Virus record (IMG/VR): IMGVR_UViG_3300042361_000037
Location: 1 to 24,557 of that record
Direction: 5' to 3' (one strand)
DNA from: a virus
DNA length: 24,557 nucleotides
Shown: piece by piece, positions 9,034 to 23,073 of the stretch
How positions within the stretch are numbered: the first letter of the stretch is position 1
How the letters are laid out: every line of letters begins with the position of its first letter
Made by a program: the position numbers and the translations under genes
Notes under the pieces: model-generated
The model's database searches: none
What the model was told of the DNA's origin: nothing
The model's input: only the letters and a program-made list of their open reading frames with translations

Positions 9034-9041
9034 TATTTATG
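9034..9041 (-). promoter_or_regulatory. Late promoter-like box CATAAATA
   Basis: CATAAATA on the minus strand, one mismatch from the T4 late consensus, 23 bases before the ATG at 9010. As at 23074-23081, the stop codon of the upstream gene (TAA, 9039-9037) lies inside the box. Confidence 0.45.
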
Positions 9042-10704
9042 TTTTGATGATCTGTGATGATAGCTCAGGTTCAGCTTGGAATGTATCAGCTTTTTCTTTG
9101 CTAGATGACTTAGAATTCTTAGCCAAATCTTTTACGATGCCAGCAGTCTTAGACAGTGAACGTTTCGCAGGTGTGCTTGTTTTCTCAAAAGAATCTTCCG
9201 GCTCTTGCTCTTCTTTTAGACCTGCTTGTTTACGTGCAGCAGTCTTTGCGAGGTGCTTAACTCTAGACATTGCTGTGTGTTTTGCGCCAGATTTGTCTGT
9301 TGTCACTTTTGTTGTATTTTTGGTATAAGGACCATCAAATGGAACCTCATAACGCTCTTTACCCAAGTCTGTTGCAGTTTGTTCAGCAGTAATGATAGGT
9401 GTAGGCTTCGCAGGCTTCTTAGCTGGTCCGGATGTGAAACGACCAGCGTCCGGATTCTCGTTGGAGTTGCTAGTTTGACCAACTTCTTCCGCCACAACAC
9501 TCTCAGCTTTGTACTTCTTAAACATATCAGTACCTTTTCTTGGTGCAAGACCTTGTGTGCGATATGCAGCAGCAGAAACAGCAGCGTATCGTTTTGTCTT
9601 CTTACTCGCCTCAGCGTTTGTGCCGGTGCCAGGCAATTCTCTTGCGCTGTCCATTGCTTTATTGACATAGGAGCCAAGAGTTTTCTTTGACAACTCATCA
9701 ATCTGCTCAACTTCTTCCTTCATCCCTGTACGGCGAGACTCACCTTCAATGTATGAGTGTAGTGATTCTACATCACTTTGAACTTTAGATAGTTTGTTCT
9801 GATACCACTCTTCAATTTCACCACCCATCTCAATGAACTCAAGAATTTCTTCAGCGGCATACTTGATGAAGTGTAGTTGCGTTTGGGCCATCTCAGTTTT
9901 TTCGGTGGTATCCGATTCAGCTTGCTCATTGATTTCAGCTTGTTTCAGAATACCTTTGACCAATGGTGCCTTTAATTGACGATGACGTGGAACTGGAATG
10001 TGGTGCTTTGCTTCTGGATGTGTGTATACATCGTGGCTACCTGATGTGCGCGAAAGTTTCCAACCACGCTTCTTCAGATGTTGATGCACAGCACGGGTAT
10101 CCATGTTAGCACCAGGCATTTCATCTAGTTGCTCAACATCAACAGACTCATCCCACTGCTTACCACGTGCCGCATTTCTAGCCGCAGATTTTGCACCATA
10201 GTTTTGTTGCAGTCTCTCAGCATCATACTTATGTACTGTAGCGCCTTTGACTTTCTTTGCAACGTTCTCGGCATGAGACTTGGTATCAAATGTTTTCCAG
10301 TGACGACCATTGACATGTACTGAGTGATAGTCTTTGGCGTCAGCTTCGGCCAGTTCAACCTCTTCATTAGTCTGTGAGTTTTTCAAATCCTTCTCGGATG
10401 GTGCACCCTCTGAGCCAGGCTTACGCATACGTTCACCTGAACCTTTTTTGATTCTTTCACGCTTGGCATGAATGTTGTCCCACAGACCAGCTTCTTCAAT
10501 GGTTTCTTCTTCTTTGATGGATTTGCCAGCAGATTTATCACCATAAGTTGCCTGACGTTTTTTAGCAAGGTCGAGCTTATCTTTGACAGCTTTTCCCAAC
10601 TTCGGATCAGCCTTCAGCATCCATCCTGTTCCAAGAGACTTTTTACCCTCTTCCAAAATGTCCTCACCGCGGACAAGACTTGCAATCTGCTTGAAACTTC
10701 TCAT
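9037..10704 (-). CDS. Capsid cargo polyprotein candidate with HicA-like RNase domain (555 aa)
   Basis: The N-terminus MRSFKQIASL resembles a capsid targeting sequence, and LEE at 17-19 is a possible prohead protease site. Segments in order: basic linker (20-115); HSVHVNGRHWKTFDTKSHA domain (127-165); LDE site at 193-195; HicA-like domain (200-256) with GSH (222-224) and a later VPRH; INE site at 258-260; helical EEW-containing segment (275-320); one DELSKKTLGSYVNKA module (336-350) as in the neighbouring repeat protein; low-complexity lysine/serine/alanine tail. The start at 10704 is chosen because it has GGGAG upstream and lies one base after the previous stop; the frame from 10788 would overlap that gene. 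I infer a head-packaged, protease-processed effector precursor; a scaffold-type role is the alternative. Confidence 0.8.
   Translation of the reverse strand: MRSFKQIASLVRGEDILEEGKKSLGTGWMLKADPKLGKAVKDKLDLAKKRQATYGDKSAGKSIKEEETIEEAGLWDNIHAKRERIKKGSGERMRKPGSEGAPSEKDLKNSQTNEEVELAEADAKDYHSVHVNGRHWKTFDTKSHAENVAKKVKGATVHKYDAERLQQNYGAKSAARNAARGKQWDESVDVEQLDEMPGANMDTRAVHQHLKKRGWKLSRTSGSHDVYTHPEAKHHIPVPRHRQLKAPLVKGILKQAEINEQAESDTTEKTEMAQTQLHFIKYAAEEILEFIEMGGEIEEWYQNKLSKVQSDVESLHSYIEGESRRTGMKEEVEQIDELSKKTLGSYVNKAMDSARELPGTGTNAEASKKTKRYAAVSAAAYRTQGLAPRKGTDMFKKYKAESVVAEEVGQTSNSNENPDAGRFTSGPAKKPAKPTPIITAEQTATDLGKERYEVPFDGPYTKNTTKVTTDKSGAKHTAMSRVKHLAKTAARKQAGLKEEQEPEDSFEKTSTPAKRSLSKTAGIVKDLAKNSKSSSKEKADTFQAEPELSSQIIKT
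9937..10107 (-). other. HicA-like RNase domain inside the polyprotein
   Basis: Residues 200-256 read as a compact HicA (YcfA) mRNA-interferase fold: a first helix DTRAVHQHLKKRGW, the strand-turn TSGSHDVYTHP with the catalytic-type histidine, the strand HHIPVPRH and the last helix PLVKGILKQAEI. Size, order and the G-S-H motif all fit. No HicB-like antitoxin is encoded beside it. Confidence 0.8.
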
Positions 10705-10705
10705 A

Positions 10706-12499
10706 TTACTCTCCCTTGGCTTGCTTGGTGGCCGTAGCGTACATAACAGACTTAGCATCTTTGCCATAACGCTCTTTGAAGCCAGCAATGTTCTTCTTCA
10801 TGCCTTTGACATTCTTTTCCAATGCAGCCTTTTCAGCGGTGGTCAATGAACGCTCTTCAATTTGCTCAACTTCTTCCTTAGCTAAACGATCAACAGCTTT
10901 GCCCATGTTTTCGCGGCGCTTCCAAGACTTAGCAAAAGTTTTATCTGCTTTCTCCATGCTCTTTCTAGCATCATTGTAGCGTGAATCTTTACGTGCAGCT
11001 TCTGAATCATTAGCATGTTGACGAGTCAATGCGCCCTTGTGTGCAACATCATGAGATGCTTTCTTGACATAGGATGCTAGTGTAGACTTCTTTAGTTCAT
11101 CTAGTTGTTCAAATTCTTCAGTTTGCATGAAGTTTTCAACATCTTCAACAGTAAATTCAAGTTCATCTAAGTTTTCATATTCTTCTCTAGTCAAACGTTT
11201 AACAGCTTTTTTAACGCCGCGGTCTCGCTTTTTAATCACACGCTGATCTGCTTTCATTTCGCGGGCGTTACGAACCTGATCAGCTTTTTTTTCAGGTTGG
11301 GCACCATACGCCACGCTTGCAATATTATGCTCTCTATCTGCTTGACTTCTTACAGCTTTATTGATGTATGAACCGAGTGTCTTCTTACTTAACTCATCAA
11401 TTTGTTCAACTTCTTCTTTAGTCAAACGATCTACCGCTCTTTGTATACCAGTAGTTGAATTTTTAAGTCTACGGAAGTTTCCTGGCGTCCTACGATTTCG
11501 TTCCAGTGTAGTAAGATGATGACCTACCTCGTGTGCGGCATACCTCACCCTGCCTTGGGCTTTATTGATATATTTACCAAGAGTCTTCTTGCTCAGTTCA
11601 TCTAGTTGTTCAAATTCTTCAGTTTGCATGAAGTTTTCAACATCTTCAACAGTAAATTCAAGTTCATCTAAGTTTTCATATTCTTCTCTAGTCAAACGTT
11701 TAACAGCGCGATCAACGCCGCGATTTCGCTTTTTAATCACACGTTCATCTTTTTTTATTTCGCGGGCTTGCTGTTTCACATCAGCTTTTTTTTCAGGTTG
11801 GTCGCCAAAGTGCAGACGTCCAATATTATAATCTTTATTTGCTACACTGCTTACAGCTTTATTGATGTATGAACCGAGTGTCTTCTTACTTAACTCATCA
11901 ATTTGTTCAACTTCTTCTTTAGTCAAACGATCTACCGCTCTTTGTATACCAGTAGTTGAATTTTTAACTTTACGGACATGTTGTGGGGACGGTTTAAGTT
12001 TAGAAACATCACGTCCTATCATGTATGATCTATTTCTCACATTATCTCGGGCAGCCTTAATATATTTACCAAGAGTCTTCTTGCTCAGTTCATCTAGTTG
12101 TTCAACAGATTCTTGCTTGACAGCTTGCACAGCAGGCTTTGCAACTTCAGCTTTGCTCTTGCCAATGGACTTGTCTTGTGCTATCTTGATCTCTTTGTTG
12201 AACTCTTCTTGAGATGCTTCTTCTTTTGTATACTTCTTAGTGTACACAGTGCCTGTGGAGATTTTCTTAGCATCGTGGCCAGTCTTCTCACCTTTTTCAG
12301 CAGTTTGGCGTGGAGTATTCTTCCAGTCAAATGGGCTAGCAGGCTTCTTGGCTTCCTCTTTGCGCAACAACTTGAAGTCGTGTGCATCAACTTTGCCGTT
12401 TTTGTTTTTATCGATCTTGTGTTGATCGCCTTTCAGTGCTTCGTCCACAACAGCTTTCACTGCTTCGGCCACTGATTTTAGAATTTTATCGTTGAACAT
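10706..12499 (-). CDS. Repeat protein with EF-hand and DELSKKTLG modules (597 aa)
   Basis: Residues 30-41 (DKNKNGKVDAHD) form a canonical calcium-binding EF-hand loop. From about residue 130 the protein consists of lysine- and glutamate-rich helical modules that each open with [LI]-D-E-L-x-K-x-T-L-[GA]-x-Y, at 135, 200, 299, 367 and 466, and close with basic RAV(D/K)RLT segments. Modules 2 and 4 are 167 residues apart. Each [LI]-D-E is also a possible prohead protease site. No membrane segment. Similar DELSKKTLG repeats occur in T4-like marine phage proteins of unknown function. Possible roles are prohead scaffold or core, DNA-binding internal protein, or precursor of many small peptides. AAGGAA upstream supports the ATG at 12499. 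Confidence 0.82.
   Translation of the reverse strand: MFNDKILKSVAEAVKAVVDEALKGDQHKIDKNKNGKVDAHDFKLLRKEEAKKPASPFDWKNTPRQTAEKGEKTGHDAKKISTGTVYTKKYTKEEASQEEFNKEIKIAQDKSIGKSKAEVAKPAVQAVKQESVEQLDELSKKTLGKYIKAARDNVRNRSYMIGRDVSKLKPSPQHVRKVKNSTTGIQRAVDRLTKEEVEQIDELSKKTLGSYINKAVSSVANKDYNIGRLHFGDQPEKKADVKQQAREIKKDERVIKKRNRGVDRAVKRLTREEYENLDELEFTVEDVENFMQTEEFEQLDELSKKTLGKYINKAQGRVRYAAHEVGHHLTTLERNRRTPGNFRRLKNSTTGIQRAVDRLTKEEVEQIDELSKKTLGSYINKAVRSQADREHNIASVAYGAQPEKKADQVRNAREMKADQRVIKKRDRGVKKAVKRLTREEYENLDELEFTVEDVENFMQTEEFEQLDELKKSTLASYVKKASHDVAHKGALTRQHANDSEAARKDSRYNDARKSMEKADKTFAKSWKRRENMGKAVDRLAKEEVEQIEERSLTTAEKAALEKNVKGMKKNIAGFKERYGKDAKSVMYATATKQAKGE
11094..11206. repeat. 113-bp direct repeat A, copy 1
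   Basis: Identical by eye to 11595-11707, 501 bases away. It encodes the REEYENLDELEFTVEDVENF segment and the start of the following module, in the same frame in both copies. Confidence 0.9.
11349..11466. repeat. 118-bp direct repeat B, copy 1
   Basis: Identical by eye to 11850-11967, again 501 bases away. It encodes KNSTTGIQRAVDRLTKEE and the EQIDELSKKTLGSYINKA module opening. Confidence 0.9.
11595..11707. repeat. 113-bp direct repeat A, copy 2
   Basis: Second copy of repeat A. Between the A and B blocks the two 501-bp units are clearly diverged, so identical and diverged stretches alternate. Confidence 0.9.
11850..11967. repeat. 118-bp direct repeat B, copy 2
   Basis: Second copy of repeat B; see 11349-11466. 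Confidence 0.9.
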
Positions 12500-14178: not shown

Positions 14179-14556
14179 TTAGCAATTCCATTTTCTTAGT
14201 GCGAGAGCTTTACGGGACGGCTCTCCGTTAGGTTTCTTCATCGGACCTTCCACTCCACCCATTCTAGCACAGAATGACTTGCGACGGTTAGCAGCTTTAC
14301 TGCCCGGTGTCAATTTTGATGGTGGTGTTGTAACCGGTGCTTTTAGATTGCCGCCATCTTTTCTGTTGTAGTAGTCACGACCCTTTTGAGTTAGACCACC
14401 AGTAGAGCTTTTTAGTCCTTTAGCATCAACTGCGGCTTCCACTACAGTTTCTTCTTTCATACAAGAATCGGGTGAGTATGCTTTCTTACCTGGAACAGGT
14501 TTATAGCCTTTCCAGCAGCGCCCAGCTTCAGTGACAAAATCTTTATAGTTTTTCAT
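14179..14556 (-). CDS. Capsid-targeted small basic protein with four cysteines (DUF6321-like), 125 aa
   Basis: The N-terminus MKNYKDFVTEAG is a capsid-targeting-like sequence with V-T-E before A. Then come CWKGYKPVPGKKAYSPDSC (cysteines 14 and 32) and a strongly conserved-looking end: LTQKGRDYYNRKDGG, SFCARMGGVEGPMKKPNGEP and ALALRKWNC (cysteines 96 and 125). This C-terminal half matches my memory of the DUF6321 family found in T4-like phages. The four cysteines could bind zinc. It is strongly basic and could bind packaged DNA or RNA. The start overlaps the polyprotein stop as ATGA. Confidence 0.82.
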   Translation of the reverse strand: MKNYKDFVTEAGRCWKGYKPVPGKKAYSPDSCMKEETVVEAAVDAKGLKSSTGGLTQKGRDYYNRKDGGNLKAPVTTPPSKLTPGSKAANRRKSFCARMGGVEGPMKKPNGEPSRKALALRKWNC

Positions 14557-17084
14557 AGGTAATTCTTTCCTCTGAACGTGCTAAGTGATATGCCATGTTT
14601 AGCCAGTTCATCTTGTTTTTGTGCACCAATTGACGCTGTGGTTGAATCCCCACCCATTTCAGCAACAGGTTTCTTTTTCAGAGGATTCACTTTGCCATTC
14701 TTGTCATTGATTTCGCCCATGTCACGCCCAATGCCTTCGCCACCAGCAGCCATGGACATGCCAGTTTCTATGCCTTTGTCGATGGCTTCTTTGAACGTGT
14801 TTTTGGCTTGCGAGAGGGTGAGCTTGCCTTTAAAGCGGCTGGCTTCGTGGATGTTTTTGGTGCTGGCTTCGGCACTGGCACTGGCACTTGTTCCTGCACT
14901 GTTACCACTGGAACTTCCACTTCCACTTTCGGTAATGGCTCTGGTACTACTACGACCGGAACTTCCACTTTCGGCAATGGTTGTGGCTCCGGTGCTGACT
15001 CCGGCACTACGGCTGGTGCTTCCACTTTCGGCAATGGTTGTGGCTCCGGTTCCACTGGCGGTTTGCTCTTCACAAAGAAACTTTTCACGAATTTCAACAT
15101 TTACATTCTCCTTTAATTTAACTATGTAACCTTTGTCTGTCTTAACGACTTCACCACCTTTGGTGTGTGCGTCTTTAGCAGCATTGTTTCGTATTGCATA
15201 TACTTTAGGCTTGTTGCCTGATGCAATATATGTAGCTCCATCTTTTACGGCAGTTCTTTCACCACTGATACTTTCGGAGACAAACATGGATTTTCCGAGC
15301 GTCAATAGATTGTATGCACCAGAATCAGACATTTCTGTGTGGTCCACGTGCTCCTCAACTTCCTGCTCTTCCACTTCTGCATCTCCATTGCCAGTCAGCA
15401 TCTTCATTGCTTTTTGTAGCTCTTCTGGGGTATCAGCTTTGAAAGTAACTGAAACGGCCTCAAAAAGATTCTGAAAATCTTCGTTGATAGACTCTTTGAC
15501 TGGTTTCTTGGGCACAGGCTTTTGGCTACTAGCTCCACTCATAGGAACTTCAGCAGTTTTCTTAATCATCTTTTGCTGTTCAGCGTGTGTTGGATCCTGC
15601 ACCAAAGTTCCGTGAACTGTGTGATGTGTGACTTTACCATTCTTACCATATCGGCCATAGCCATAGTATTGTAGCCCAAGGCGTCTAGCTTCATCAGTTG
15701 CTTTGTTTTCGCCCTCAGCGGAGTGTGGAATAGACAGTTCCGTGCCTTTCTTAGGAACAGGCAAGGTGTCTTTCTTCTGTAGTTCACCAGCAACCCAAGC
15801 CTTAGCTTGCTCATTCTTAGGTGGTGCTTGAACAAACTTTTGGACAGTCTTGAAGATGTTGTTCATCTCTTCTTTCTTGGCTTTGACCACTTCTGGTGCT
15901 GCGGTGCGCAAGTCTTCAGAGTTATCAAATTCAATATAGCTGTTGCCAAACAACTTAGCCATCTCTGGGCGTGAATTGTTTACTGCGTCCCACTTTTCTT
16001 TACGAATATTCTCAGGAACTGTACGACCACCTCTTTGCCCACGCTCAACGTTTCTCTGTGCAGAAATTTCATCGCGTGTAACAACGGCAACCATAGAAGT
16101 TTCATAGCCAATTTCTTCTAAGTTTTTCTTTATCTTGGCATACTTTGCGGGATCATCGCCTGTGCCATTGATAATGATGCCGTTGCGACCCAACAGCGCC
16201 AGCTTCTGCTTCAACTCTGTCATGTCTTTTGCTTTACCGCGAACAAGTGTCCGTGCATCAGCTTCAGTCTCTGGCATTTTCTTGTCCAGATTATTCTTGT
16301 CCATCAGAAACTCAAGTGCTTTGTCTGAGTTGATTTCAATCAAGCCATGACCAGCAAGTGTGTTATCCAACACATAGTCTTTACCTGAGCCTGGACCGCC
16401 CGATAGAAACACAGCCTTGAAGATGCCTTTATCGTGGACACCCTCAGATAGGATCATCTGAATTTGTGATCGGAAATCTTCTTTGACTTGCATTCCCTTG
16501 CGCACATCATTATACAATTCTTTAGCGTGTTCTGGCGCTACGTGACTTGGAATGCCTTTTTTGAATTCTTTGAAGTTGCCTTTTGATGCATGGCTACGCA
16601 TCTTGGATGCAGACATACCAGATACACCCTCAGCATCAGGATCACGCTCACCAGCGGAGTGTACGTGAATACCACGAAACTTGAAGTATCCATGCGTACC
16701 TTTTACGCCATTGTATTTGTGTAAAATCTTCTCATACTCACCAGTTCTATCGGATCCTGCAACCATGTGCAAATGTGTAGCGCCAGCTTTGTGGAGTTTT
16801 GATGCTTGAGCCAGAAAGTTTGGATGTTCTTTACTGGAGGTTGTGATATTCGTGTCAGGAAAATATCGTTGTGCGTGTTTGACTTTTTGCTCACCTGAGA
16901 GTGGATTCTTCTCAGCGTCCTGTGAATGCGATAGAACAACGTGGTGTGTTCCCTTCACAGATTTAGCAACATCTTTGACTTTATCAACCAGTTTTGCATG
17001 ACCGGTTGTTGGTGGATTCATGCGTCCGAACGCAAGGACCGCATGTTTTTCTGTTGTTTCTTCTAAATATTGTCTGAACTTCAT
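14553..17084 (-). CDS. Capsid cargo polyprotein candidate: nucleotidyltransferase plus zeta-like kinase (843 aa)
   Basis: Segments in order: targeting-like MKFRQYLEET (1-10); nucleotidyltransferase of the NMN-adenylyltransferase type with GRMNPPTTGH (20-29) and SGMSASKMR (155-163); LSE site (212-214) before G; P-loop kinase with GGPGSGK (229-235), NSDK (252-255), NGIIINGTGDD and RNVERGQRGGR (344-354), resembling zeta toxin; sites INE (533-535) and LFE (540-542); a small alpha/beta segment (545-665); a serine/glycine/threonine stretch with IAE, IAE and ITE each before S (684-719); IHE before A (745-747); a glycine-rich end. GGAG precedes the ATG at 17084. The serine-rich stretch is also read in another frame (see 14768-15100). 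I infer a head-packaged precursor cut by the prohead protease; a cytoplasmic multidomain enzyme is the alternative. Confidence 0.82.
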   Translation of the reverse strand: MKFRQYLEETTEKHAVLAFGRMNPPTTGHAKLVDKVKDVAKSVKGTHHVVLSHSQDAEKNPLSGEQKVKHAQRYFPDTNITTSSKEHPNFLAQASKLHKAGATHLHMVAGSDRTGEYEKILHKYNGVKGTHGYFKFRGIHVHSAGERDPDAEGVSGMSASKMRSHASKGNFKEFKKGIPSHVAPEHAKELYNDVRKGMQVKEDFRSQIQMILSEGVHDKGIFKAVFLSGGPGSGKDYVLDNTLAGHGLIEINSDKALEFLMDKNNLDKKMPETEADARTLVRGKAKDMTELKQKLALLGRNGIIINGTGDDPAKYAKIKKNLEEIGYETSMVAVVTRDEISAQRNVERGQRGGRTVPENIRKEKWDAVNNSRPEMAKLFGNSYIEFDNSEDLRTAAPEVVKAKKEEMNNIFKTVQKFVQAPPKNEQAKAWVAGELQKKDTLPVPKKGTELSIPHSAEGENKATDEARRLGLQYYGYGRYGKNGKVTHHTVHGTLVQDPTHAEQQKMIKKTAEVPMSGASSQKPVPKKPVKESINEDFQNLFEAVSVTFKADTPEELQKAMKMLTGNGDAEVEEQEVEEHVDHTEMSDSGAYNLLTLGKSMFVSESISGERTAVKDGATYIASGNKPKVYAIRNNAAKDAHTKGGEVVKTDKGYIVKLKENVNVEIREKFLCEEQTASGTGATTIAESGSTSRSAGVSTGATTIAESGSSGRSSTRAITESGSGSSSGNSAGTSASASAEASTKNIHEASRFKGKLTLSQAKNTFKEAIDKGIETGMSMAAGGEGIGRDMGEINDKNGKVNPLKKKPVAEMGGDSTTASIGAQKQDELAKHGISLSTFRGKNYL
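14768..15100 (-). CDS. Embedded overlapping gene candidate: proline-rich, basic-tailed protein (110 aa)
   Basis: This frame lies wholly inside the polyprotein gene in another frame of the same strand. It begins MLKFVKSFFVKSKPP, continues with three PEPQPLPKVE-type repeats (third shortened to PEPLPKVE), valine/proline dipeptides, and ends in a lysine-, serine- and proline-rich basic tail (SPSRKPKTRSKKPSTKA). AAAGGAG stands seven bases before its ATG, a better ribosome binding site than most genes here have. The four base substitutions between repeats 2 and 3 keep this protein unchanged but alter the polyprotein. The extended proline region and basic tail recall TonB-like spacers and DNA-binding tails; no function can be assigned. 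Confidence 0.6.
   Translation of the reverse strand: MLKFVKSFFVKSKPPVEPEPQPLPKVEAPAVVPESAPEPQPLPKVEVPVVVVPEPLPKVEVEVPVVTVQEQVPVPVPKPAPKTSTKPAALKASSPSRKPKTRSKKPSTKA
14962..15050. repeat. Tandem repeat region with two identical 32-bp units
   Basis: The 32 bases at 15019-15050 and 14962-14993 are identical and 57 bases (19 codons) apart; a shortened, diverged third unit follows at about 14910-14945. The repeats encode PEPQPLPKVE in one frame and TGATTIAESG in the other. Confidence 0.85.
15108..15114 (-). promoter_or_regulatory. Strong ribosome binding site AAAGGAG inside the polyprotein gene
   Basis: AAAGGAG on the minus strand with seven bases to the ATG at 15100. Its presence in the middle of a long gene supports translation of the embedded frame. 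Confidence 0.6.
15885..16421 (-). other. Zeta-toxin-like P-loop kinase domain
   Basis: Residues 222-400 of the polyprotein: AVFLSGGPGSGKDYVL (Walker A), NSDK after the second strand, NGIIINGTGDD as the third strand, and an arginine-rich lid ERGQRGGRTVPENI, where zeta-type kinases place their substrate and phosphate contacts. Other P-loop kinases (gluconate or polynucleotide kinase type) share parts of this pattern. Confidence 0.65.
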
Positions 17085-20766: not shown

Positions 20767-21072
20767 TTACTGACCTGGAGTATCTCGTTTGTATCGCTTG
20801 ACTAGCAAGTCTGTGCCCTCTTGCCCTGCGCCAGCTGGTGGCAGAATGTCTGGATTAGGAGACTTCTTTTCTTCATGCACACTTTTATGTAGCTGAACTC
20901 CAGTGACTTTCTGGACCATATCCCAAGCATCCTTTGTTCGCTTGTTCTTCACATGATCATCAAATTTCTTTTTCTGTTCAGGTGTAGCTTTTTGCTTGAA
21001 TTTGATAAGTTCCATAATGCCGATGTTACCAGCATAAGATGCTTCTTTCACCAGTTCTTTGAATGACTGCAT
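20767..21072 (-). CDS. Small basic protein with capsid-targeting-like N-terminus (101 aa)
   Basis: Starting at the ATG that overlaps the previous stop (TAATG) gives MQSFKELVKEAS, a targeting-like sequence with V-K-E before A. The rest is lysine-rich and helical (KFKQKATPEQKKKFDDHVKN, DAWDMVQKVTGVQL) with a tail containing PPAGAGQEGTDLLVKRYKRD and TPGQ at the end. No family recognised. The GTG at 21084 would add four residues before the motif and is less likely. It may be a small internal head protein. Confidence 0.75.
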   Translation of the reverse strand: MQSFKELVKEASYAGNIGIMELIKFKQKATPEQKKKFDDHVKNKRTKDAWDMVQKVTGVQLHKSVHEEKKSPNPDILPPAGAGQEGTDLLVKRYKRDTPGQ

Positions 21073-22304
21073 TATTTGTCCCACGCTTTCTGTGCGGTGA
21101 AGTTTGCATGACTGAATTCAAGTCTATCAACCAACTTGACGGCATTACCTTTTAGTCGATCAACAGCAACAAAGCCTTCTGGATTCGTGACCTTAAATCC
21201 ATCATCTGTACGTAAGAATGCACCAGTAACTTGACGCATCTGTTGTAACTTTTTGATAATGATATTCTTGGAATCAACGATCATATTCATGATATCAAAA
21301 ATCTTAACAAGCTCGGCAAAGTTGCTTCGATAGAATCGCATGATTTCATTCTTTTCAGCTTGACGCTTGAGTTTAGTGTCTTCTCTTTTAGCGGCAATAA
21401 TCTCTTTGTTCAGCTTGTCTTCAATCCATTTCAACAGTCCTTTCGCATGTTCCGTTGTATCTTTGATGTGTTCACCGGAACGAACTTTCGTGTTGTTGTA
21501 TGTTTTGATCTGAACATTGAATATCTCAGAGGTAGCAATACGATTCAGGGTCATGCTACTGGTTCTTTGGAACAGGGATCCTGCTTGAGATAAAATAGCT
21601 GTGATTTCTTTAGTCTCTTTTTCGGTAAATGTGACTGTACCAGATGCGTCAACGAAATATGCATCACGGAACCAAACATCCTTAGTTGCTTTCATTCTAC
21701 CAATATCGATGTTGAATGAAGACTTCAAATCTGCGATTGTCTTTCCTGTGTATGCCGTATGAAACACAATACCCATTTGTGCTGTCAACATGGACTTAGC
21801 TAGTGCAGAATCTTCAGGAACCGCATACACGATTGTGTTTGGTTGAAATGTCACATACTTGACACCATCAATCGTTGCTTTCTTGATATCACCTTTAGCA
21901 AACATCATGTCGCCTTGCAGAATGCCATCGATACCAATCTTAGGCAAGTATGCTAGTGCAACCTTCAGTTTCTTATTCAGGCCTTCACCTGGATGATTTC
22001 TGTCAATATCTTCATCGGTGTAGTTCAGCTTTGCATCTTTGTTGAAGATGCCTTTTGTGGCTACAAAGAACTTACCATTCTCTGGATTAGTGCCAGCAAA
22101 TACAGCAGGTGCACCGTCCCATTTTGTGGTAATGTTTACCTTGCCGTCTGAATTGCCAGCAAGCATGTCTCTGAGTGATCGCAAAAAGTTGATTGCATCT
22201 CTCGTACCAGCTACACCGCGATTTAGAACTTCTTCCTCGATATGCTCTAGGTGAACGTTCTTGCCTTCTTTTGAGGACTCTGTTAGGAATTCTTTGAATT
22301 TCAT
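21072..22304 (-). CDS. Capsid-targeted KxDG nucleotidyltransferase-like protein (410 aa)
   Basis: The first ten residues MKFKEFLTES are the clearest capsid-targeting-like sequence here, with L-T-E before S. Residues 59-70 (TTKWDGAPAVFA) contain K-W-D-G, the lysine motif used for covalent AMP or GMP attachment by DNA/RNA ligases and capping enzymes. GIDGILQGDMMF and GIVFHT could be motifs III/IIIa and IV. Similar proteins of this length occur in T4-like marine phages without known function (I recall DUF6267, unverified). RNA ligase, DNA ligase or a non-catalytic relative are all possible. The ATG at 22304 shares a base with the previous stop; a GTG at 22316 is the alternative. Confidence 0.75.
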   Translation of the reverse strand: MKFKEFLTESSKEGKNVHLEHIEEEVLNRGVAGTRDAINFLRSLRDMLAGNSDGKVNITTKWDGAPAVFAGTNPENGKFFVATKGIFNKDAKLNYTDEDIDRNHPGEGLNKKLKVALAYLPKIGIDGILQGDMMFAKGDIKKATIDGVKYVTFQPNTIVYAVPEDSALAKSMLTAQMGIVFHTAYTGKTIADLKSSFNIDIGRMKATKDVWFRDAYFVDASGTVTFTEKETKEITAILSQAGSLFQRTSSMTLNRIATSEIFNVQIKTYNNTKVRSGEHIKDTTEHAKGLLKWIEDKLNKEIIAAKREDTKLKRQAEKNEIMRFYRSNFAELVKIFDIMNMIVDSKNIIIKKLQQMRQVTGAFLRTDDGFKVTNPEGFVAVDRLKGNAVKLVDRLEFSHANFTAQKAWDK

Positions 22305-23053
22305 TACGTAAAACACCCTAAACTTAAATCTTTTTTGATAATTGTGACACTTTTGCCATCAACTGGAGCAATGTTGAATGGTGATTTTTTGCTTGATGGT
22401 ATAGAAAATTGCATTTCAAAAGTGAACTGATAATTGCCGCTACCTTTATATTGAACCCTGGCTCTATAAGTTGCTTTTGCAGAAGTACCGAAGCGAGGAA
22501 CGTCTTTCAGCTTTAAGGGATTTTTTGAGCCCATTAAGTAGAAACCGTGAGTGCCAACATTTACATAGTAAGTATCTTTTTTGTTGTAATAATCTTCAAT
22601 TTCTTTTGCACTAATCTCACCACGAATATCTTGAAAAGTATCTCTATCCCTTTCATATCTCTTTTGAGGAGATAGTTTACCTGCAGTGGCTTCCCATAAT
22701 GGATCTTTATCTCTCTTGAAAGGAATTTCTTTCCACTCAGCTTTAAGTCTTTTGAATAATCCAACTTCTTCAGCTAGATTCTTAATAAAGAACTTTTCAG
22801 CATCATCTTCACTGACATTGCCAAATTTCCAGGGACTTTTTTTATCTTTCGCATCATATTTCAAAACAAGGGAACCAGCGGACGCTGCCGTGATTTTCAA
22901 TTCACAACCAGCTTTGTCTTTCTTATGTTCAAGCATCAAATCTGGTTGATCATGTCCTGCTCCCGCTGGCTTAAAACTTTTAGGCACAAGACCCATAGGT
23001 TTCAAGACATTAGCGGCATTTATTTCGTATTGGAAGCCTTGTTGAGCGGCCAT
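22304..23053 (-). CDS. PD-(D/E)XK nuclease-like protein (249 aa)
   Basis: Residues 30-55 contain AGAGHDQPDLMLEHK followed by GCELKIT: a P-D (37-38), a spacer of 12 and E-L-K (51-53), the arrangement of PD-(D/E)XK nucleases. The rest is lysine-rich with a beta-rich second half (RVQYKGSGNYQFTFEMQFS) that might recognise DNA. It has no targeting-like N-terminus. The start at 23053 is chosen because GGAG lies six bases before it; the ATG at 23065 would be almost at the predicted transcript start. It is the first gene behind a late promoter, so it is probably made late and could act on DNA during packaging or as a restriction-like enzyme. Confidence 0.72.
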   Translation of the reverse strand: MAAQQGFQYEINAANVLKPMGLVPKSFKPAGAGHDQPDLMLEHKKDKAGCELKITAASAGSLVLKYDAKDKKSPWKFGNVSEDDAEKFFIKNLAEEVGLFKRLKAEWKEIPFKRDKDPLWEATAGKLSPQKRYERDRDTFQDIRGEISAKEIEDYYNKKDTYYVNVGTHGFYLMGSKNPLKLKDVPRFGTSAKATYRARVQYKGSGNYQFTFEMQFSIPSSKKSPFNIAPVDGKSVTIIKKDLSLGCFT

Positions 23054-23059
23054 AAAAAT

Positions 23060-23063
23060 CTCC
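23060..23063 (-). promoter_or_regulatory. Ribosome binding site GGAG deciding the start at 23053
   Basis: GGAG is followed by ATTTTT and ATG at 23053. The upstream ATG at 23065 overlaps this site, so it is unlikely to be the start. Confidence 0.65.
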
Positions 23064-23073
23064 ATTTATTGGA

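Follow-up and report, generated by a model that had tools for sequence, protein, structure and literature searches.

The stretch of viral DNA considered here, 24,557 nucleotides of IMG/VR record IMGVR_UViG_3300042361_000037 (the window), carries on its minus strand, at positions 14553-17084, a gene for an 843-residue protein which probably serves a T4-related phage as a cargo polyprotein, packed as one chain, cut within the head and injected as separate enzymes. The open reading frame (ORF) is real, and coding statistics favour its frame except across the overlap with a nested gene. A first reading made from the letters alone (the sequence-only reading) had described an 843-residue ORF with the motif GRMNPPTTGH and a P-loop kinase with an arginine-rich lid. 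This description is borne out, with the minus strand now added: GRMNPPTTGH occupies residues 20-29, the P-loop GGPGSGKD residues 229-236, and the lid contains R344, R348, R351 and R354.

The layout is that of a nucleotidyltransferase (NT) domain, a P-loop kinase and small modules, with disordered linkers between them. PHROG matches assign cytidyltransferase families to residues 9-208 and ATPase families to residues 208-436. In the full-chain AlphaFold2 model (mean confidence score, pLDDT, 60) residues ~10-200, 221-437, 461-505 and 620-658 are confident, while pLDDT falls below 50 at 203-220, 513-550, 565-616, 659-757 and 765-818. Since a targeting and cleavage signal appears to be present both at the protein start and exactly between the two enzymes, the phage probably packs one chain, cuts it and injects the products. 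What is new here is the proposed multi-enzyme polyprotein as a variant of T4-type capsid cargo. That the chain is cut, that the kinase is injected and what the enzymes do is inferred.

Signals at the protein start and at the enzyme junction

The protein begins with MKFRQYLEE, in which F3, Y6, L7 and E9 (then T10) fit the register of the capsid-targeting sequence (CTS) of T4 IPIII. Residues 4 and 7 of the IPIII sequence act in targeting, and residues 8 and 10 in processing (PMC9026906). These four correspond to positions P7, P4, P3 and P1 of the cleavage site. All 22 aligned homologues have [LIVM]xE in the same N-terminal columns. The virion location of the NT in cyanophages is already published: mass-spectrometric proteomes of S-SCSM1, S-SZBM1 and S-CREM2 virions contain NT homologues, and S-CBWM1 is cited as well (PMC9602691, PMC9146016, PMC10665884). 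Both virion-detected NTs whose starts were translated carry the signal (S-SCSM1 ORF91, MKSFLQFLKE/AA; S-SZBM1_140, MRFRQFIIE/AV; here and below a slash marks the presumed cut). Targeting of the 843-residue protein to the head is supported by these comparisons. A search of the literature on capsid targeting together with cyanophages returned a T4 review only.

The second signal lies between the NT and the kinase, where the sequence-only reading had noticed L-S-E before G at 212-215 as a separator. Kinase loci were gathered by scanning IMG/VR from a kinase alignment, with patterns that lie downstream of the site and do not include it. [LI]xE directly precedes the conserved glycine in 80/80 viral loci, which de-replication reduces to 39 internal in fusions and 29 N-terminal, and the site is kept in 22/22 sequences of the full-length alignment. 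Loci on bacterial or archaeal contigs, which are probably phage contigs, agree with [LI]xE/G in 17 of 18 cases, the remaining one reading IKE/S. As the 80 loci share ancestry, they do not represent 80 independent events, and the better argument is a free P2 beside fixed P1 and P3. Among the 39 internal sites P1 is always E and P3 is L (34) or I (5), while P2 is nearly free, with an entropy of 3.35 bits; 23 of the sites have F at P7, and 24 have L or I at P4.

Stand-alone kinases start at this very site, with MKTFAELQE/G in Melnitz, MIPFILKE/G in HTVC008M and MTEISKQLDE/G in locus L020. The fusion therefore appears to carry an embedded signal, since its junction is the own N-terminus of the stand-alone kinases. 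In HTVC008M the kinase and NT are adjacent separate genes in the opposite order, and in Melnitz they lie far apart. Fused kinases are preceded by NT domains of at least three types, with the motifs GRMNPPTTGH, GGGFQPFHAGH and, in the NadM-like type, PGRFQPFHKGH, and the junction signal persists through these exchanges. The comparative evidence for the two predicted cuts, one internal at E214/G215 and one N-terminal after E9, is strong.

Relatives encode a suitable protease. Peptidase_S77 (T4 gp21 family) is found in G001 (a 162-kb relative holding locus L015), G003, HTVC008M, Melnitz, C48C1, S-SSM4, S-SSM7, S-SCSM2R, DLP6, Atu_ph07, G011, G012 and further kinase-bearing contigs. The major capsid proteins of these phages carry LxE at the expected maturation site: GYLTE/A in G001, FLSE/A in Melnitz, FLGE/I in HTVC008M, MLTE/A in S-SSM4 and FLAE/A in S-SCSM1. 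S77 protease and major capsid genes were not seen in the 24.6-kb window, itself a fragment. In the mechanism proposed, the N-terminal CTS would bring the whole chain into the prohead core, where the T4-type prohead protease would cut after E9 and E214, and possibly after E542. The NT and the kinase would thereby be freed inside the head, and both would be injected with the DNA. The junction signal would be the one that the kinase once bore at its own N-terminus, retained by the fusion.

Other candidate cleavage sites

[LI]xE[AGS] occurs six times in the protein against 1.9 expected from shuffles (p=0.009), and all six sites lie in predicted disorder. The sequence-only reading had listed further [LI]xE positions, all of which are exact, and had placed them outside the recognised folds; the listed sites are indeed all in predicted disorder, but six [LI]xE sites absent from that list also exist (7, 248, 322, 657, 665 and 670), of which 248 and 322 lie within the kinase fold. 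Its proposal of processing into separate enzymes is supported at the N-terminal and junction sites and not supported at the four in the tail. Between these, [LIVM]xE is kept at site 533, where the next residue is D, in 17/22 homologues and at site 540 in 11/21. Processing at 533 or 540 is weakly suggested by these counts, and the alignments lend moderate weight to a third cut.

The tail sites 684, 703, 717 and 745 are kept in 6/16, 0, 2/7 and 3/19 homologues, respectively. Nor are they independent hits, because an LPKVE repeat of the nested gene reads as an IAESG repeat in the main frame. Given the poor conservation and the nested-gene overlap they were rejected as cut sites and are probably not functional.

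Evidence against a processed polyprotein, and a possible uncut alternative

Several observations weigh against a packed and processed polyprotein. The LxE at 248, within the kinase fold, is as conserved as the junction (22/22), so that conservation can have structural causes. Internal motifs in CTS register occur at about chance frequency in seven phage proteomes, with no excess in six and a mild one in S-SSM7 (15 versus 8.9). Motif counting was therefore dropped as evidence; the motif alone proves nothing, and only its conservation at module borders is informative. The Walker A motif of the fused clade ends in D rather than S/T. The NAMPT gene for NAD salvage was not found in 15 related records. 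The authors of the virion proteomes caution about possible co-purification (PMC10665884). For the fused protein and its fused homologues, cleavage and virion location are predictions from sequence. Finally, fusions with a NadM-like NT (L145-L149) lack the N-terminal signal, and so does L151; behind these NadM-like or unassigned NT domains the kinase nevertheless keeps its [LI]xE/G junction.

The leading alternative is that [LI]xE/G serves the kinase family structurally, as the end of an N-terminal helix, in an uncut cytoplasmic bifunctional enzyme resembling NadR. In its favour are the equally conserved LxE inside the fold, a short helix predicted at 204-216, and the place of the motif, immediately next to the conserved GVxDxxIFKA in all the kinases, whether they stand alone or are fused. 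Moreover, the order NT then kinase is that of NadR, and in a whole-chain Foldseek search both domains align in order to NadR 6gyf over 457 columns. Against this, the junction segment is probably not packed, given a pLDDT of about 60 in the domain model and below 50 in that of the full chain. The hypervariable P2 and a match extending to the T4 targeting register also argue against a purely structural role, as does the presence of the motif as a typical MKTFxELxE terminus in stand-alone members. In addition, [LI]xE is missing from the distant kinase of PSS2, a phage in which no S77 protease was detected. An uncut enzyme is accordingly regarded as unlikely, and a processed cargo chain is preferred.

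Identity of the kinase and the nucleotidyltransferase

The sequence-only reading had likened the kinase to zeta toxins. In part this stands: Pfam Zeta_toxin matches residues 223-370 (E 5e-14 to 7e-13; 48.8 bits against a cut-off of 22.3), and AAA_33 also matches (E 8e-9). Fold comparison, however, does not single out zeta. The domain model (pLDDT 89) scores highest with O-phosphoseryl-tRNA kinase (PSTK; Z score 15.4), the putative kinase 2rhm (15.3) and Clostridium thermocellum polynucleotide kinase (PNK; 15.0), followed by zeta (13.5), adenylate kinase (13.1) and T4 Pnk (12.9). By these scores the modelled kinase resembles PSTK and PNK no less than zeta. In profile searches adenylate kinases and zeta come together; an adenylate-kinase-type assignment from these profiles was set aside, as fold scores rank PSTK and PNK higher. 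In the fused clade (L108-L152) Walker A reads GGPGSGKD, with D where S or T normally binds Mg, and stand-alone relatives have GKS or GKT.

The NT carries GRMNPPTTGH and SxSxxxR and matches PPAT (Z 14.4) and NMN adenylyltransferase (NMNAT; Z 13.4) in fold. Pfam CTP_transf_like (17-83) falls just under its cut-off. Most likely the two enzymes would serve the metabolism of small-molecule nucleotides as infection begins, combining adenylyl transfer of the NMNAT or PPAT type with a kinase, as in NadR. NadR itself or PPAT/dephospho-CoA kinase pairs offer our best guess at a model for such a pairing.

A different function, though one leaving packaging and processing untouched, would be nucleic-acid end repair, with the kinase acting as a 5'-polynucleotide kinase alongside the DUF6267 protein encoded nearby. 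The fold scores with the clostridial and T4 enzymes favour this, as does DUF6267 itself, which has an invariant KxDG like nucleic-acid ligases, a CTS-like start and a syntenic position. T4 Pnk, however, has Arg three residues after its catalytic Asp; here L or F takes that place after Asp254, the presumed catalytic residue. A ligase assignment of DUF6267 by sequence was also rejected, as no PDB ligase was matched. End repair is regarded as somewhat less probable than the uncut enzyme.

Least probable of all is the toxin theme that the sequence-only reading suggested, taken here to mean that a zeta-type kinase and other toxin-like domains such as HicA leave the capsid to act as poisons in the host; the Zeta_toxin match speaks for it, as does HicA, found in an [LI]xE-rich protein nearby and in 3/12 relatives (G001, G002, G011), but it is not supported, since fold scores and joint profile matches do not single out zeta, the NT is of a metabolic NMNAT/PPAT-like type, and in 12 records neither HicB (positive controls present) nor an epsilon antitoxin family (control genomes silent, hence no positive control) was found.

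Comparison with known systems

The proposed processed cargo chain resembles T4 IPI-IPIII and Alt, which are processed by gp21, in its hydrophobic/aromatic N-terminal signal with an [LI]xE cut and in the S77 protease of its relatives; like Alt, the proposed cargo is enzymatic. T4 cargo proteins, by contrast, are single-function and trimmed at the ends, whereas here two enzymes and further modules share one chain and the signal is repeated between the enzymes. The virion NMNAT/cytidylyltransferases of cyanomyoviruses (S-SCSM1 ORF91, S-SZBM1_140, S-CREM2 ORF154) have a homologous NT and a CTS-like start with no kinase fused, and the excerpts of the papers describing them do not report a targeting or cleavage signal. 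NadR likewise has an NT followed by a P-loop kinase, but the NCBIfam equivalog nadR_NMN_Atrans scores 17.3 bits against a cut-off of 341, the junction is disordered and probably cleavable, and the kinase is nearer to PSTK, PNK and zeta. Stand-alone phage kinases of the PHROG 2071 type (HTVC008M gp129, Melnitz 118) belong to the same family and have [LI]xE/G at the N-terminus, but are separate genes with GKS/GKT instead of the GKD of the fused protein. In INPHARED no phage record reached 80% coverage of the fused protein, so that here the fusion has to date been met in environmental contigs only.

If the proposal is correct, tailed phages would use a Gag-Pol-like logic, in which several enzymes enter the head in fixed ratio through a single targeting event and are then set free for injection by the protease that matures the capsid. 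This would explain the recurrence of NMNAT-like enzymes in cyanophage virions, and would provide a rule, hydrophobic-x-x-hydrophobic-[LI]xE/G or A at conserved domain borders, for predicting injected phage proteins. More tentatively, and with slightly less than an even chance, Kyanoviridae-like phages may in general string signal-bearing modules in shuffled order, and pack them as one chain for cutting in the prohead by the capsid protease, with a second protein overprinted, in the present gene, in the +1 frame of the linker between modules.

Further features of the gene and its neighbours

Table 1. Features of the 843-residue protein gene and its surroundings (window positions; residues are those of the protein)
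Feature	Positions	Strand	Basis
Capsid-targeting-like sequence MKFRQYLEE, residues 1-9, predicted cut after E9	17058..17084	-	homologue conservation, T4 IPIII CTS register
HxGH-superfamily NT domain, residues 10-201	16482..17057	-	PHROG 3041/395 cytidyltransferase, E 6e-66/1e-43; PPAT/NMNAT fold
Disordered junction with embedded targeting/cleavage signal EDFRSQIQMILSE, residues 202-214, predicted cut E214/G215	16443..16481	-	conservation, pLDDT <50 at 203-220, stand-alone kinase starts
P-loop kinase domain, residues 215-437, Walker A GGPGSGKD	15774..16442	-	Pfam Zeta_toxin, AAA_33; AlphaFold2 pLDDT 89
Small module GLQYYGYGRYGKNGKVTHHTVHGTLV, residues 461-505	15570..15704	-	AlphaFold2 confident segment
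Candidate sites INE 533-535 and LFE/A 540-542	15459..15488	-	disordered region 513-550
Small folded module, residues 620-658	15111..15227	-	pLDDT 69-83 at 621-650
Tail sites IAE 684, IAE 703, ITE 717, IHE 745 in Ser/Thr/Gly-rich linker, probably not cut	14844..15035	-	unconserved, dual-coding DNA
Conserved C-terminal segment (GDSTTASIGAQKQDELAKHGISLSTF)	14556..14687	-	retained across fused homologues
Nested gene, +1 frame, 110 residues: short amphipathic N-terminus, Pro/Val/Glu-rich middle, basic Ser/Pro/Lys tail	14768..15100	-	conserved with ribosome-binding site
Ribosome-binding site AAAGGAG of nested gene	15108..15114	-	conserved upstream of nested ATG
Next gene, DUF6321 protein, CTS-like start MKNYKDFVTE/A	14179..14556	-	ORF, Pfam DUF6321 1e-25
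DUF6267 protein, CTS-like start MKFKEFLTE/S, invariant K-x-DG	21072..22304	-	Pfam DUF6267 5e-111, alignment

In NT proteins of the cyanophages S-SSM4, S-SSM7 and S-SCSM1, a module of the kind found at residues 461-505 comes right after the N-terminal signal, which reads MK-x-F-x-x-F-L-x-E.

Comparison of related sequences indicates that the tail region, within a disordered linker, is dual-coding. The nested gene, preceded by the ribosome-binding site sequence aaaggagaatgtaaATG, is conserved in L006-L018, and some fifteen further fused homologues have it too, always in the +1 frame; its recurrence extends to about 25 homologues. Relative to the flank, substitutions in the overlap are displaced towards the nested third position across seven pairs of relatives (Fisher p=1.4e-5), while on the whole both frames appear to be under constraint. 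The nested protein, whose basic tail is of SPxK type, had no PHROG match.

The DUF6267 gene lies syntenically upstream of the NT in HTVC008M, Melnitz and others, and its product may be a ligase-like nucleotidyl-transferring enzyme and a capsid cargo. Further CTS-like starts nearby read MNFKEFITE/S and MQSFKELVKE/A. Two further [LI]xE-rich repeat proteins (EQIDELSKKTLGSY), including the one with the HicA domain, are encoded at 9037-12499 on the minus strand; the pattern used to search for the HicA junction in relatives gave no match. A possible PD-(D/E)xK nuclease motif is seen in the neighbouring protein (22304-23065, minus strand; loci L001 3203-4261 and L002 3284-4369), and a similar motif follows CTS-like starts in HTVC008M gp126 (NLSE/A) and Melnitz 15 (FLSE/A). 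In Stenotrophomonas phage DLP_6 (L033, 2830-4998) an NT and a basic module are joined via LTE/A, and a similar basic protein stands alone in C48C1, with the CTS-like start MLSFKQFVSE.

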